Source: an uncultured Alphaproteobacteria bacterium
GTDB lineage: Bacteria > Pseudomonadota > Alphaproteobacteria > Sphingomonadales > SMXR01
Length of the DNA stretch: 38,259 nucleotides
Direction: 5' to 3'
Assembly (NCBI GenBank): GCA_937126915.1
Contig: CAKZLM010000142.1
Coordinates: 1-38,259 of the forward strand
Under the pieces are notes generated by a model. The model was not told where the DNA came from and did not search any database. It saw nothing but the letters and a program-made list of their open reading frames with translations. Positions 2,609 to 15,942 of the stretch are shown one piece after another (position 1 is the first letter of the stretch; the number at the start of each line of letters is the position of its first letter). A program made the position numbers and the translations under genes.

Positions 2609-5600
2609 ATGAAAATATCATCATTAGCATTGGCCGTTGGCCTTGGGTTGAGCGCTGTTGCCTTGCCTGCATCCTTTCAACCCGTTATGGCAAAGGACAT
2701 TGTTGATCCAGCCCTTTATAAGGCGATGAATTGGCGCTTTGTAGGGCCATATCGCGGTGGTCGTGCGGTCACAGCTGTGGGTGTTAAAGGCGACCCGATG
2801 ACCTATTATATGGGCACCACGGGCGGCGGTGTTTGGAAAACAACCAACGCTGGTATGACGTGGGATAATATTTCTGACGAGCATTTTAACGTTGGTACCA
2901 TTGGTGCCATTGCGGTGGCAGAAAGTGACCCCAATGTCCTTTATGTTGGCACGGGGGAAAGCCCTATTCGCGGTGTGACAACATCCCATGGTGATGGGGT
3001 TTATAAATCCACCGATGGCGGCAAAACGTGGACCCATATGGGGCTGAAAGACACCCGCCAAATTTCCCGCATTCATGTTGACCCGACCAACCCTGACATT
3101 GTTTATGTGGCGGCACAGGGAAATATCTGGGGCCCCAATGATGATCGCGGCATTTATAAATCAGTTGATGGTGGCAAAACATGGAAGCAAACTTTGTTCA
3201 CCAATGGTCAAAGCGGGGCGGCTGATTTGTCGATGGACCCCACTAACCCGCGTATTATGTATGCTGCCATGTGGCATCATGGTCGTAAACCTTGGTACAT
3301 GTTATCAGGCGGCGAGGGCGGTGGTATTTATAAAACCACCGACAGCGGCGAGACATGGCAAAAGCTGGGCGGTGGCTTACCGGGCTTAGTCGGTAAAATT
3401 GGCGTAAAGGTATCACCGTCCAACCCAGACATTGTTTATGCCGTGGTTGAAGCAGAAGAAGGCAAGGGCGGTATTTATCGCTCAAACAATGGCGGGCGCA
3501 CATGGTCGCACGTTAACAAACAGCGTATCATTCAAGCGCGCGCGTGGTATTACAACCATATTAGCGTTGACCCCAACGATGAAAACACCCTTTATATTTT
3601 AAACGCGCCTATTTTAAAATCCATTGATGGCGGTAAAACCTTTGTTAATATGGCAAAAGATGGCATGGCCCCACCGCACGGTGACCACCATGATCAATGG
3701 ATCAACCCTGACAACAGCCTGAATATGATCAACGCCAATGATGGTGGCGGGTCTATCACGTTTGATGGTGGCAAAACATGGTCGCCAAATACCAACCAAC
3801 CCACTGCACAGTTTTATCGGGTGATCACAGATAATCAATTCCCATATCGCATTTATGGGGGGCAGCAGGATAACTCAACGGTGTCTATTGCCTCTGAAAC
3901 CTTTGATGGTGGCATTGGGCGCGAAGATTTCTTCCCTGTGGGCGGCGGTGAAAGTGCGCATATTGCCTTTGATGAGAACAATCCTGAGCTAATTTATGCA
4001 ACCACCATTAACGGCACCTTGACCGAATATAACAGCAAAACGCAGGAAATGCGCCCAATTAAGCCTTATCCTGAATATGTTTTCGGTCGTAACCCGAAAG
4101 ATCATAAATATCGCACCAACTGGAACGCGCCAGTGATCACATCACCGCATGACCCAAGCGTTATTTATTATGGCACGCACAAATTGCTAAAAAGCATGGA
4201 TCGTGGCGTAACATGGGCAGAAATTAGTGGTGACTTAACCCGTAATGATAAAGCCAAACAAGGCCAAAACGGTGGCCCTTTGACCAACGAACAAGCAGGG
4301 GCTGAGTTTTATAATACCATTTTCTATATCGTTGAAAGTCAACATGAGAAGGGCACCATTTGGATCGGATCAGATGATGGTTTGGTTCACATCACCCGCG
4401 ATGAAGGCGGTAGTTGGGATAATGTTACTCCTAAGGGCCTGAAAGAAACCCAGATTAACGCCATTGAGGTGTCACCCCATAACCCTGCCAAGGCCTATTT
4501 GGCTGTAACGGGTTATAAAATGAATGACTTCAAGCCCTATATTTATGTCACCGAAAATTACGGCCGTACCTGGAAACGCTTGGATAAGGGCCTGCCAGAA
4601 GACACCTTCGTGCGTGTGGTGCGTGAAGACCCCGTTCGTGAAGGCCTTTTATATGCAGGCACTGAGGCGGGCATGTTTGTGTCATTTGATGCGGGTAAAA
4701 ACTGGCAAAGTTTAGAGCAAAACTTGCCACCCGTTCCCATTACAGACCTAACCATTCGACAAGGTGACTTGGTTGCCGCTACTCAAGGTCGTGGTTTTTG
4801 GGTGATGGATAACTTGTCACCGCTACGTCAAATTCAGGTGGGTGACAGTAAAGAGGACCTTAAACTTTATCAGCCCATAGACACCGCCCAAGTAGCAGGT
4901 GGCGGCGGTGGCGGTGAATTTAATGGTCGCAATCCAACCCGTGGTTTGGAAATTTTCTATTATTTGGATGAAGATTTATCTAGCCCGCTCAGCATTGAGA
5001 TTTTAAATGCCGATGATCAAGTGGTGCGCACTTATTCAAGTGAGGAGCGCGAAATTGACCGCTGTATTTTAAGCAATATGGATCAACGCTCGCCGTTTAG
5101 CCTAAGCTATCCATCTACCAAAAAAGGCCTAAACCGCTGGGTATGGAACTTTGGTCGTAATGAATTAAATTGTGTGTTTGATATCACCATGTTCCATGGT
5201 TTTGGTGGGGCGCGGGTTCAACCAGGTGATTATAAAGTGCGGGTTAGCTTTGGCGATGAAAGCCAAATCCAAAGCTTTAGCGTGCTGCCCGATCCACGCA
5301 GCAGTGCCACGCCTGATCAATATGCCGCCCTTGAAGCGCGCATTGTTGAGGTCACAGATCTGATGAATGAGCTGTTAGATGGCATTGGTTCTATGCGTGA
5401 CGCGCGTGAACAGGTAAAAGCCTTGATTAAAGCCCAAAGCGATGATGAGGTCATTGCGGCGGCAAATGCAGCGGTTAGTGCCATTGATGCGTGGGAGCAA
5501 TCTGTGCGTCAAGTGAAGTATGAAACTTTCGAGGATGACTTAACCTGGCCAAACTTGCTTGATGTGCAAATCAAGCACTTGTTGGATAGTATCGCCCGTG

Positions 5601-5928: not shown

Positions 5929-6004
<76 letters not shown>

Positions 6005-12762: not shown

Positions 12763-12857
12763 GTGTAGCGCGGCAAGAATTTGGATCAAACCTTTTGACA
12801 CTAATGACTCAAACTTTTTGTCACGCTACACGACAGTATTATATCCAATAACACACC

Positions 12858-12970: not shown

Positions 12971-12999
12971 TTGCACATTCCACTATGGTGTATTACATA
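12971..12999 (+). promoter_or_regulatory. Candidate promoter of the structured leader and ABC operon
   Basis: TTGCAC at 12971-12976 and TACATA at 12994-12999 are 17 bases apart. The -10 lies inside the GGTGTA palindrome, and predicted transcription starts where the U-poor region begins. Confidence 0.4.
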
Positions 13000-13010
13000 A
13001 CTAGTACACC
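12987..13010. promoter_or_regulatory. GGTGTA palindrome, probable operator of the GntR/YtrA-type regulator
   Basis: A 24-bp imperfect palindrome: GGTGTATTAC on the left and CTAGTACACC on the right around a 4-base centre. Arms match at 8 of 10 positions. It overlaps the candidate -10, so binding would block transcription. YtrA-subfamily GntR proteins are known to autoregulate their ABC operons from such inverted repeats, and one is encoded 670 bases downstream. Confidence 0.5.
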
Positions 13011-13436
13011 GCATCAATAAAGCGGCATTAAGCAGCAAGCGGTGAACGACAGCGACAAAGGTCACAGACGCGAGAACAGCAGAAGAGGCCGACCCATAAT
13101 AAAAATGCCAAAAGGAAATAACCCAGCGGCGCCCAAATAAAGCATGACAAACATGCGAGGTAAAAATCCCAAAAGGGCCAAATAGAGCCATGAGGGAACG
13201 ACAGCAAACAAGGGCCAGCAAGAGCCCAAACGTAGCAACCCAGAAATGGGTTTAATAAGAAGGCGAAAAGCCCGCAATAACAAAAAAGACCCGGCAAGGG
13301 TCACGACAGAAAAGCCGAAAGGCCACCTTTGAGAAAAGGGCTGAGAAGACAAAAAGCGCCAGCCTCAATTCTTTTAAAACAAATAAGAAAAGAAACCGTC
13401 GTCACGACAGCGACATCGACCCATAAGGATAAAACA
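13011..13436 (+). ncRNA. Long U-poor, hairpin-rich leader RNA
   Basis: By hand count only 23 of 300 bases are T in 13021-13320. Short stems with A-rich loops follow one another: GCATG-ACAAA-CATGC (13142-13156), CCC-AAAA-GGG (13168-13177), GGGC/GCCC (13212-13227), AACCCA-GAAA-TGGGTT (13237-13252), GACCC-GGCAA-GGGTC (13288-13302) and GCC-GAAA-GGC (13314-13323). Two loops are GNRA tetraloops. ACGACAG occurs four times (13046, 13198, 13303, 13404). No long plus-strand frame is open; tiny basic ORFs at 13105, 13144 and 13190 lack ribosome sites. It lies between a promoter/operator and the 49-residue peptide, so it is most likely a structured 5' leader. I match it to no known RNA class. Confidence 0.5.
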
Positions 13437-13586
13437 ATGAAACACACTGTAGAGCAACAATTAATGACCCCAGAAAATCACAAAATTCGCCGTATGCGTC
13501 GCCGTGCGCGTCGCAGCCAAAGAATGGGATTCCAACCCTTTATGGCCCCTGGTTCGGTGGTTAACTGTGGTGGATTATCATTGTAA
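13437..13586 (+). CDS. 49-residue Arg-rich peptide ahead of the GntR-ABC operon
   Basis: ATG 13437 has AAGGA (13425-13429) 7 bases upstream, a convincing start. The N-terminal 17 residues are neutral to polar. Residues 18-29 are strongly basic (IRRMRRRARRSQR), and the end is hydrophobic with a single Cys (GSVVNCGGLSL). There is no signal peptide. The basic segment suggests nucleic-acid binding. Alternatively it could be a precursor peptide exported by the downstream ABC transporter, but no modifying enzyme is nearby. The frame extends upstream to 13329, though without a start that has a ribosome site. The gene is followed by a 93-bp gap and the regulator. I do not recognise a family. Confidence 0.6.
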   Translation: MKHTVEQQLMTPENHKIRRMRRRARRSQRMGFQPFMAPGSVVNCGGLSL

Positions 13587-13679: not shown

Positions 13680-14051
13680 ATGAAACCTGAATGGAGAGAA
13701 GACCAACCAATCTATCGCCAATTGCGAGACAAAGTGGCTGAAGCCATTTTAAAAGGCTCGCTGCAGGAAGGGGATGCTTTACCATCAGTGCGTAACATCG
13801 CAGTGGAAATGCAAATTAATCCCTTAACTGCAAGCAAAGCTTATCAGGAGCTAGTGGCGGAAGAACTTGTCGAAAAGAGAAGAGGGTTAGGCATGTTTGT
13901 CATCGCAGGCGCTAAGGATCGCTTATTGTCTGCAGAACGCAAACAGTTTTTGGATGAAGAGTGGCCAACAATGGTGACCCGCATCAAAAGCTTGGGCCTT
14001 GATATAGAAGAATTACTTAAAAATGCCGAGCGTGAAGGAGGGCAAGAATAA
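13680..14051 (+). CDS. GntR-family regulator, YtrA subfamily
   Basis: 123 residues from ATG 13680. The N-terminal 70 residues are a GntR winged helix (PIYRQLRDKVAEAILKGSL, then LPSVRNIAVEMQINPLTASK), with the usual wing (LVEKRRGLGMFV). The C-terminal part is a short helical dimerisation segment of about 50 residues, not an effector-binding FadR- or HutC-type domain; this is what marks the YtrA subfamily. Such regulators typically repress their own ABC transporter operon. The stop TAA overlaps the ATG of the ATPase gene (TAATG), so translation is coupled. The GGTGTA palindrome at 12987-13010 is the likely operator. The inducer is unknown; in other bacteria it is often cell-envelope stress or antibiotics. 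Confidence 0.9.
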   Translation: MKPEWREDQPIYRQLRDKVAEAILKGSLQEGDALPSVRNIAVEMQINPLTASKAYQELVAEELVEKRRGLGMFVIAGAKDRLLSAERKQFLDEEWPTMVTRIKSLGLDIEELLKNAEREGGQE

Positions 14052-14908
14052 TGTCTTACGTGGTAGAAGCATCCGGCCTATCGAAAAGTTATGGTAAGTT
14101 TAAAGCCCTTAAAAACGTTAATGTAAATATTGAACGCGGTAAAATTGTTGGTGTTGTTGGTGCCAATGGTGCTGGCAAATCAACCATGTTAAATGCAATT
14201 TTAGGGCTTTCAAAATATGAAGGTTCGCTAAAAGTTTTAGGTCAAGATCCATCCACTGATCGTGCCAGTTTGATGGAAAATGTCTCGTTCATTTCAGATG
14301 TGGCAACCTTGCCACGTTGGATGAAAGTGTATCAAGTTTTAGATTTTGTTGAGGGCGTTCATAATAATTTTGATCGTGACTTGGCGCTTTCCTATTTGGC
14401 GAAAACCAAAATCCCTCTTGATAAGAAGATTAAAGGCCTCTCAAAAGGCATGGTGACCCAATTGCATCTTGCCGTTGTTATGGCCATCAAGGCTGATTTA
14501 TTGGTTTTGGATGAACCAACCTTGGGACTGGATATTTTATTCCGTAAACGTTTTTATGAAAGCGTGTTGGAAGACTATTTCGATCATGACCGCACTATTT
14601 TGATCACCACCCACCAAGTCGAAGAGGTGGAAAGCATTTTGACCGATGCCTTGTTTATCAAAGATGGTGAAATGGTTCTTTACAACACCATGGAAGAAAT
14701 TGAACAAGAGTTTGCCATGGTCACAGTTGAAAATGACATGAAAGAAAAAGCTGAAGCCTTAAATCCGATTTACAGCAGCGGGATGATGGGCATGACCAGC
14801 TATGTTTTCGATAAAGCTAACGAAAAAGACCTTGCTGGTTTGGGTAAGGTGAAAAAAGTTGGATTGGCTGATTTGTTTGTCGCCATCATGTCGGGAGACG
14901 AGGAATGA
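14051..14908 (+). CDS. ABC transporter ATP-binding protein
   Basis: 285 residues from ATG 14051. Motifs: Walker A GANGAGKST near residue 40, an LSKGM signature near 130 in place of LSGGQ, Walker B LLVLDEP near 153 followed by the D-loop (TLGLD), and an H-loop His in ITTHQVEE near 195. The C-terminal 70 residues are a variable accessory segment. This is the pattern of the single-domain ATPases partnered with ABC-2-type or YtrB-like permeases. It works with the membrane protein encoded next, with which it overlaps by 4 bases (ATGA). The substrate is unknown; lipid, peptide or drug export and envelope-stress protection are the family options. Confidence 0.92.
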   Translation: MSYVVEASGLSKSYGKFKALKNVNVNIERGKIVGVVGANGAGKSTMLNAILGLSKYEGSLKVLGQDPSTDRASLMENVSFISDVATLPRWMKVYQVLDFVEGVHNNFDRDLALSYLAKTKIPLDKKIKGLSKGMVTQLHLAVVMAIKADLLVLDEPTLGLDILFRKRFYESVLEDYFDHDRTILITTHQVEEVESILTDALFIKDGEMVLYNTMEEIEQEFAMVTVENDMKEKAEALNPIYSSGMMGMTSYVFDKANEKDLAGLGKVKKVGLADLFVAIMSGDEE

Positions 14909-15942
14909 GCAGCAGCAATATGACAGCAAGTCCCAATAATAACGACAGTAGCAAAAAAAGCGGAGGCTTCACCATGGATATGAATTTGGCAAGATTTGGC
15001 AAATATCCGGCGTTAATACAGCGGGAGTTTTTAGAGCATAAAATGGCCTTTTTCACGGTGCCATTGGTGATTAGCATTTTCATTGTTTTAGGCGCTGTAT
15101 TTACGGCTTTGTTTTCCAGCAACTTTATGGATTATGTTGATATCTCTGATGCTGACTTAAACAATATGCGCCTTGAAGCGGAAATGGAATTTTCCGACAT
15201 GGACGAAGGTGATTGGGCCAAGGTTGAGGCCGCAGCTTCTGCCGTTATGGGGATGATTGCAGCACCCTTGTTCATGATCTTCCCTTTCATTGTGATGTTT
15301 CCGCTATTAAATTCATTGTATGAAGAGCGGGTAGAGCGTTCTTATTTGTTTTGGAAATCAATGCCTGTTTCAGATGTTGAAGAAGTATTGATCAAAATGT
15401 TGTTGATCGTGGTATTAGGACCGATGTGTTTATTTGCCATGATGATCGTGGTTGATTTCTTGGCCTTGTTGATCTTTACCCCTGTGATCATGGGTTATGA
15501 TTTACCAATCTTGGGTGTTATCTGGTCAGCGCCATTTATCACCATGTGGATTGGTGCATATGTCAATTATTTGGCCTGGGTTCTATGGGCATTGCCTGTG
15601 TTGGCTTGGTTCATGTTGGCATCGTCTTATGCACCTAAAGCACCCTTGATGTATGCCTTGGTACCACCAGCGGCTATCATGATCTTAGAAGCGATCTTGT
15701 TTGATCGCACCATCCTTGGTGAACTGATCTTAAGCCGTATCGCCACAAAGTTTGGCTTGATTATGGAAGATGTCATTGACTTCCAACGCTTTGAAGATGG
15801 TGAGCGTATTGCCTCTTTATCAGCTCTTGATGGCTTGGAAGCCATGGTTGCAACCCTTGCAAACCCCAGTTTCTGGGCTGGTGCCGTGGTTGCAGGCGGG
15901 TTCCTAGCAGGGGCGGTTTATTTCCGCCGCTTTAGAACCTAA
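14905..15942 (+). CDS. ABC-2-type membrane permease
   Basis: 345 residues from ATG 14905, which overlaps the end of the ATPase gene. The first 30 residues are a Ser/Asn-rich cytoplasmic tail. A membrane helix follows at MAFFTVPLVISIFIVLGAVF, then an acidic extracytoplasmic loop (DISDADLNNMRLEAEMEFSD) and about five more hydrophobic helices, the last near VVAGGFLAGAVYF. This matches the six-helix layout of ABC-2 exporters. With the ATPase it should form a 2+2 complex in the inner membrane. An internal ATG before MDMNLARFGKYP could be an alternative start. It is the last gene of the operon and is followed by a terminator. Confidence 0.85.
   Translation: MSSSNMTASPNNNDSSKKSGGFTMDMNLARFGKYPALIQREFLEHKMAFFTVPLVISIFIVLGAVFTALFSSNFMDYVDISDADLNNMRLEAEMEFSDMDEGDWAKVEAAASAVMGMIAAPLFMIFPFIVMFPLLNSLYEERVERSYLFWKSMPVSDVEEVLIKMLLIVVLGPMCLFAMMIVVDFLALLIFTPVIMGYDLPILGVIWSAPFITMWIGAYVNYLAWVLWALPVLAWFMLASSYAPKAPLMYALVPPAAIMILEAILFDRTILGELILSRIATKFGLIMEDVIDFQRFEDGERIASLSALDGLEAMVATLANPSFWAGAVVAGGFLAGAVYFRRFRT

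Follow-up and report, generated by a model that had tools for sequence, protein, structure and literature searches.

What does an operon gain from a leader that almost lacks uracil, and what would such an RNA bind? The question is raised by the window analysed here, a stretch of 38,259 nt from a draft alphaproteobacterial genome (176 contigs) that shares its order with the Kordiimonadaceae and with Iodidimonas/Rhodothalassium genomes. An earlier note had pointed to a U-poor region upstream of an ABC transporter operon and had proposed a riboswitch-like or protein-binding leader. The sequence comparisons below favour, with considerable confidence, another reading: the region is very probably a multi-site sRNA-binding 5' leader of a YtrA-repressed operon, target and probably also sponge of a SorX/SorY-like sRNA.

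Composition and setting of the leader

A direct count between 13021 and 13320 gives 23 T in 300 nt (7.7%), exactly as the earlier note had claimed, while in other 300-nt stretches of the window the lowest count is 46 and the mean 85 (28%). The loss is confined to T, since C and G are normal, with an AT skew of about +0.65 and a GC skew of about 0. The U-poor stretch begins right behind the operator (12988-13009) and extends to the start of the peptide gene (13437), and these coordinates bear out the order promoter/operator, U-poor stretch, Arg-rich peptide gene that had been described. Region 13011-13436 folds more stably than its dinucleotide shuffles (z -3.65) and forms a chain of short GC stems, in agreement with the hairpins noted before; two have GAAA loops, ACCCA-GAAA-UGGGU and GCC-GAAA-GGC. 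The four copies of ACGACAG reported earlier are found at 13046, 13198, 13303 and 13404, compared with 0.08 in dinucleotide shuffles. A fifth copy (12830-12836), located before the operator and not part of the presumed transcript, is probably due to chance.

Table 1. Features of the locus and of the candidate sRNA gene (positions refer to the window unless a contig is named)
Feature	Position	Strand	Basis or remark
Promoter-like TTGCAC - 17 nt - TACATA (putative)	12971..12999	+	read by eye from the sequence
YtrA/GntR-type operator GTGTATTACATAACTAGTACAC	12988..13009	+	palindrome, matches relatives' sites
U-poor structured leader	13010..13436	+	427 nt, 10% T
sRNA-pairing site 1 (predicted), ACGACAG(CGA)	13046..13052	+	motif, cofold
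GCGAGG half-site (predicted), partner of AUGACA upstream	13155..13160	+	cofold net -11.9 kcal/mol; weak split site
sRNA-pairing site 2 (predicted), ACGACAG(C)	13198..13204	+	motif, cofold
sRNA-pairing site 3 (predicted), GUCACGACAG	13303..13309	+	motif, 8-mer matches, cofold
sRNA-pairing site 4 (predicted), GUCACGACAGCGA	13401..13413	+	perfect complement of own-genome sRNA
49-aa Arg-rich peptide gene	13437..13586	+	ORF; similar RRxRR peptides at the equivalent place in ~45 genomes
YtrA-type GntR repressor gene	13680..14051	+	PF00392, E 2.6e-13
ABC transporter ATPase gene	14051..14908	+	PF00005, E 3.9e-24
Putative ABC permease gene	14905..15942	+	overlaps ATPase gene; no family match
Candidate sRNA gene, window's genome	G000 contig C36, seed 3551-3563	+	adjoins oxyR

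The -10 element of the promoter-like pair falls within the operator, and the transcript would start near 13006. This pair was not called by a consensus promoter scan; in relatives, TTGAC(A/T) is found directly upstream of the operator. In those relatives that possess an operator of the GTGTATTACATAACTAGTACAC type, it is the single best palindrome in front of gntR, with 0-8 mismatches. The operon resembles other YtrA-type GntR/ABC operons, of which ytr of Bacillus subtilis is an example, in its short GntR regulator, operator, ABC ATPase and permease; it differs from them in the leader, peptide and sRNA, which are specific to the group of families described below. Hfq is encoded in the window's genome.

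Searched at gathering score, Rfam yields a single match in the window, a tRNA at 5929-6001, and none in the leader, so the earlier statement that it fits no known RNA class holds against that database. A metabolite riboswitch or a ribosomal-protein-type leader would also be a structured, conserved leader upstream of an operon; such an identity is nevertheless very improbable, given the lack of an Rfam match and of a single conserved aptamer-like core, the repetition of modules in varying number and the wide range of leader lengths among relatives.

Distribution and structure in related genomes

A direct BLAST search with the leader gave nothing useful in plasmids, phages or 60 relatives, and the peptide used alone as query against genome contigs found no relatives. 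Relatives were instead reached via the neighbouring gntR gene, matched at E<=0.001 in 98 of 100. The layout of operator, U-poor leader, Arg-rich RRxRR peptide, ytrA-type gntR and ABC genes is present in about 45 related alphaproteobacteria, distributed over the window's own family (f1), the Kordiimonadaceae (f4) and two further families (f6 and f7), with the Iodidimonas/Rhodothalassium group among the carriers. Leader length varies from about 45 to 508 nt in these four families, and short leaders with only one or two sites occur in f1, f6 and f7. The median T content is 8.9% in 45 leaders, against 26.6% (family f8) and 20.6% (others) in control ytrA operons. ACGACAG is found in 41 of the 45 leaders and in none of 57 control ytrA-operon leaders, counts that ignore kinship; four leaders lack an exact copy. 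Its copies exceed those in shuffles, with 44 vs 1.5 in Kordiimonadaceae and 20 vs 0.5 in the other families.

Operons of like kind in f8 and in Gammaproteobacteria have neither the Arg-rich peptide nor a U-poor leader; the two features are present together and absent together. In f8 (L051, L053, L059, L064, L067, L068) a peptide of about 75 aa with a hydrophobic segment lies between operator and gntR, in place of the Arg-rich one. In Woeseiaceae and other Gammaproteobacteria (L115-L148) the operator-to-gntR regions span 200-400 nt, are not U-poor and contain no Arg-rich peptide. The leader L042 of Eilatimonas milleporae (contig of L100) apparently contains a tandem duplication which includes a second Arg-rich peptide frame.

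In Kordiimonadaceae leaders, hairpins alternate with two linear motifs, ACGACAG and CAGCGAGGA; in Kordiimonas the last CAGCGAGGA/CAGCGAGGAG is the Shine-Dalgarno region of the peptide. A covariance model, R1, comprising hairpin H1, CAGCGAGGA and hairpin H2, was built on six leaders; it finds held-out leaders with E of 1e-7 to 1e-11, values that are rough given the short calibration, and also second or third modules inside one leader. The covariance check suggested by the earlier note gave two-sided changes in 13 of 15 pairs tested among Kordiimonadaceae leaders, with 95.6% of cells paired vs 35-63% when the pairs were slid. These compensatory changes indicate genuine RNA structure in the Kordiimonadaceae leaders. 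R1 gives no match to the leader of the window itself, which resembles those of its relatives in anatomy and motif and is probably a structured RNA too, the covariation being that of the Kordiimonadaceae leaders only. A further R1 match, at G096:C147 (L190), looks like chance.

The joint presence of leader and peptide, together with the GNRA-like loops of several window hairpins, would also be expected if the Arg-rich peptide bound the leader and regulated its own synthesis, in the manner of lambda N/boxB or of a CcaF1-like RNA-binding peptide. Small Arg-rich DUF1127 proteins such as CcaF1 are found in Alphaproteobacteria and are linked to sRNA control (PMC10253847), and the peptide here is likewise small, Arg-rich and alphaproteobacterial; unlike them, it has no Pfam match, since six of the peptides searched at E up to 10 hit no family, DUF1127 included. 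A boxB would appear as a conserved hairpin with a GNRA-fold loop, whereas the H1 loop sequences are not conserved among Kordiimonas leaders and vary freely; what is conserved is a linear motif matching an sRNA seed. The lambda N/boxB idea was dropped because the conserved part is this linear motif, and autoregulation by the peptide is on the whole unlikely.

A candidate small RNA beside oxyR

Genome-wide searching for the fused motif ACGACAGCGAGGA led to the sRNA locus: genomes of f1, f4, f6 and f7 have roughly one additional conserved locus each. The opposite strand of this locus would encode an RNA in which hairpins are followed by AUCCUCGCUGUCGUGACUC, and this in turn by a GC-rich terminator with a U tail. 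AUCCUCGCUGUCGUGACUC is an invariant segment, predicted as single-stranded in the sRNA and complementary to the leader motif ACGACAG(CGAGGA). The neighbour of this locus is oxyR in the genome of the window and several more, and ahpC/ahpD in others still. In the hairpin 5' of the seed the sequence changes while pairing is kept.

With up to three mismatches allowed, the 26-nt sRNA core occurs in 43 of the 44 genomes from f1, f4, f6 and f7 and in none of 56 from f2, f3, f5 and f8; sRNA and leader motif co-occur with the same counts (43/44 vs 0/56), which are not independent if the four families form one clade, as they may. The folded sRNA loci were picked by an exact 13-mer, and the invariance of the seed in that set is therefore partly by construction; in a fairer test, the three-mismatch core search, the seed is unchanged in the main copy of each genome. 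As the seed never varies, no covariation between seed and site can be shown. A class-wide scan gave no convincing case of the sRNA outside the clade; two covariance-model matches there (L177, L178) have no seed and look like chance. One relative contains two copies of the oxyR-type core (G003:C20:2810 and G003:C66:30700). In Kordiimonas (L180, L187) the 3' UTR of an Hsp20-like gene contains a second RNA, in which the same UCCUCGCUGUCGU seed precedes a terminator; it resembles SorX-type 3'-UTR-derived sRNAs.

OxyS of Escherichia coli is an sRNA that adjoins oxyR in divergent orientation. The candidate described here also adjoins oxyR; unlike OxyS, in the window's genome it lies upstream of oxyR on the same strand, and no sequence relation between the two was found. 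Closer likeness exists with SorX (RF02784) and SorY (RF02651), oxidative-stress sRNAs of Rhodobacter (PMC6238624), which in R. sphaeroides share with it a hairpin, a CCUC.CUGU-type single strand, a GGCCG terminator and the oxidative-stress setting; the candidate has a different seed and a location beside oxyR/ahpCD, and it scores 28.7 bits against the Rfam model of SorX (gathering 46.6) and 32.3 bits against that of SorY (gathering 111), far below the gathering score in both cases. No description of sRNA or leader was found in the open-access subset of the literature, and the sRNA predicted beside oxyR is previously undescribed.

Predicted pairing sites and proposed function of the leader

ACGACAG is the reverse complement of the conserved sRNA seed, and the most economical ligand of the leader is thus an RNA. 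The earlier proposal stands as far as it described a structured leader, of no familiar RNA class, in front of the peptide and ABC genes; the absence from Rfam and the strong covariation in relatives agree with this. It gives way in its "riboswitch-like or protein-binding" part. A reading of ACGACAG as a 16S rRNA complement and possible ribosome-docking site was dropped once the sRNA emerged.

Nineteen leaders compared with the whole 150-nt sRNA of their own genome give 142 8-mer matches vs 23.6 in shuffles, and 105 of the 142 fall at seed offset 0-14, where about 2 (1.8) are expected. A count of duplexes with energies of -11 kcal/mol or lower failed to tell real from shuffled sequences in most leaders, whereas the 8-mer test succeeded. 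In the window, site 4, which lies 24-36 nt ahead of the start of the peptide gene, is a perfect 13-mer complement of the seed of the same-genome sRNA; in the whole genome GTCACGACAGCGA has only two perfect matches, this site (13401-13413) and the antisense of the sRNA gene. Its duplex reaches -27.2 kcal/mol, compared with -23.6 for the best of 200 shuffles. On the 5' side of site 3, ACCCGGCAAGG resembles the antisense of the foot of the sRNA terminator. In Kordiimonas the order ACGACAG - H1 - CAGCGAGGA is that needed for one sRNA to pair both half-sites, and cofolding closes both around H1 as a three-way junction, with net energies of -17 to -27 kcal/mol.

The predicted accessibility of the sites is 0.70 in native leaders, 0.60 in shuffles of the same composition and 0.41 with T at 25%; this drop with more T is a possible reason for the missing U. 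U-depletion could instead serve RNA stability, through the lack of U-containing single-stranded RNase E sites and the scarcity of pyrimidine-rich Rho sites; RNase E prefers U-containing single strands, and the depletion affects T only, with C and G at normal levels. As the main explanation this is rather doubtful, because it accounts neither for ACGACAG/CAGCGAGGA nor for the sRNA complement and the co-occurrence; stability may be an added benefit and not an alternative.

Other mRNAs with sites for the same sRNA were also found. Beyond the leader, 8 of 13 further perfect ACGACAGCGAGGA sites are followed 14-24 nt later by a start codon, and these other predicted targets, among them genes for an ABC-type permease and an adaptor-like protein, have a single RBS-overlapping site each. 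In the window's genome, an ABC ATPase gene is a further candidate target, with a one-mismatch site GACACGACAGCGA (L179, G000:C137:6229-6241) 30 nt in front of it. The leader, too, has a site overlapping or adjoining the RBS or start of the peptide in most lineages (ATGGTCACGACAGCGAGGAC in Iodidimonas, the Shine-Dalgarno CAGCGAGGAG in Kordiimonas, 13401-13413 in the window). Together with the one- and two-site leaders of f1, f6 and f7, this leaves a serious place, somewhat short of even, for a plain target in cis, where an oxidative-stress sRNA represses the ytr operon via redundant sites and no meaningful titration takes place; indeed, one site suffices for a simple repressive target. Against it are the presence of up to four sites, mostly far from the RBS, in a leader of special composition, and the single RBS-overlapping site of the other predicted targets.

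In the favoured multi-site reading, the leader would be a docking platform for a trans-encoded sRNA from the locus beside oxyR/ahpCD, whose unpaired segment AUCCUCGCUGUCGUGACUC would pair with the ACGACAG(CGAGGA) repeats; in Kordiimonas the sRNA would clamp ACGACAG and CAGCGAGGA on both sides of the conserved hairpin, generating the three-way junction. The site close to the RBS would act as a gate for peptide translation, with bound sRNA causing repression. U would be avoided because base-pairing with it would mask the A/G-rich sites, and the GC hairpins would act as spacers between sites. The extra upstream sites, together with the other single-site mRNAs, suggest that the derepressed transcript titrates the sRNA as a sponge and frees its other targets. 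That both RNAs are made and pair, and that regulation runs in this direction, we infer from the sequences. The more specific proposal of a new class of operon leaders, in which a U-depleted scaffold presents tandem, hairpin-split bipartite sites to be clamped by the oxyR-linked sRNA as three-way junctions and, once YtrA is released, takes up the sRNA, linking YtrA signalling with the sRNA network of oxidative stress and with translation of a new Arg-rich peptide family, is offered tentatively.

Known mRNA-borne sponges are the chb operon spacer, acting on ChiX, SroC, acting on GcvB, and the 5'-UTR-derived ChiZ and IspZ (PMC8383071). The leader shares with them an mRNA-encoded segment complementary to an sRNA seed, and SroC/GcvB is likewise linked to ABC-transporter mRNAs. 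Unlike them, it would be the intact 5' leader of a GntR-repressed operon, with tandem sites that are hairpin-split in Kordiimonas; it is U-depleted and precedes an Arg-rich peptide, and its sponge role is a proposal.

The analysis thus points to a new sRNA that is conserved, with an unchanging seed, in at least four alphaproteobacterial families together with a multi-site partner leader, and to a concrete reason for an RNA to avoid uracil, namely that its sRNA sites would stay unpaired. Hairpin-split sRNA sites would be an unusual pairing geometry, and tandem sites upstream of a repressor-controlled operon would tie an ABC-transporter signal to the oxidative-stress sRNA network.
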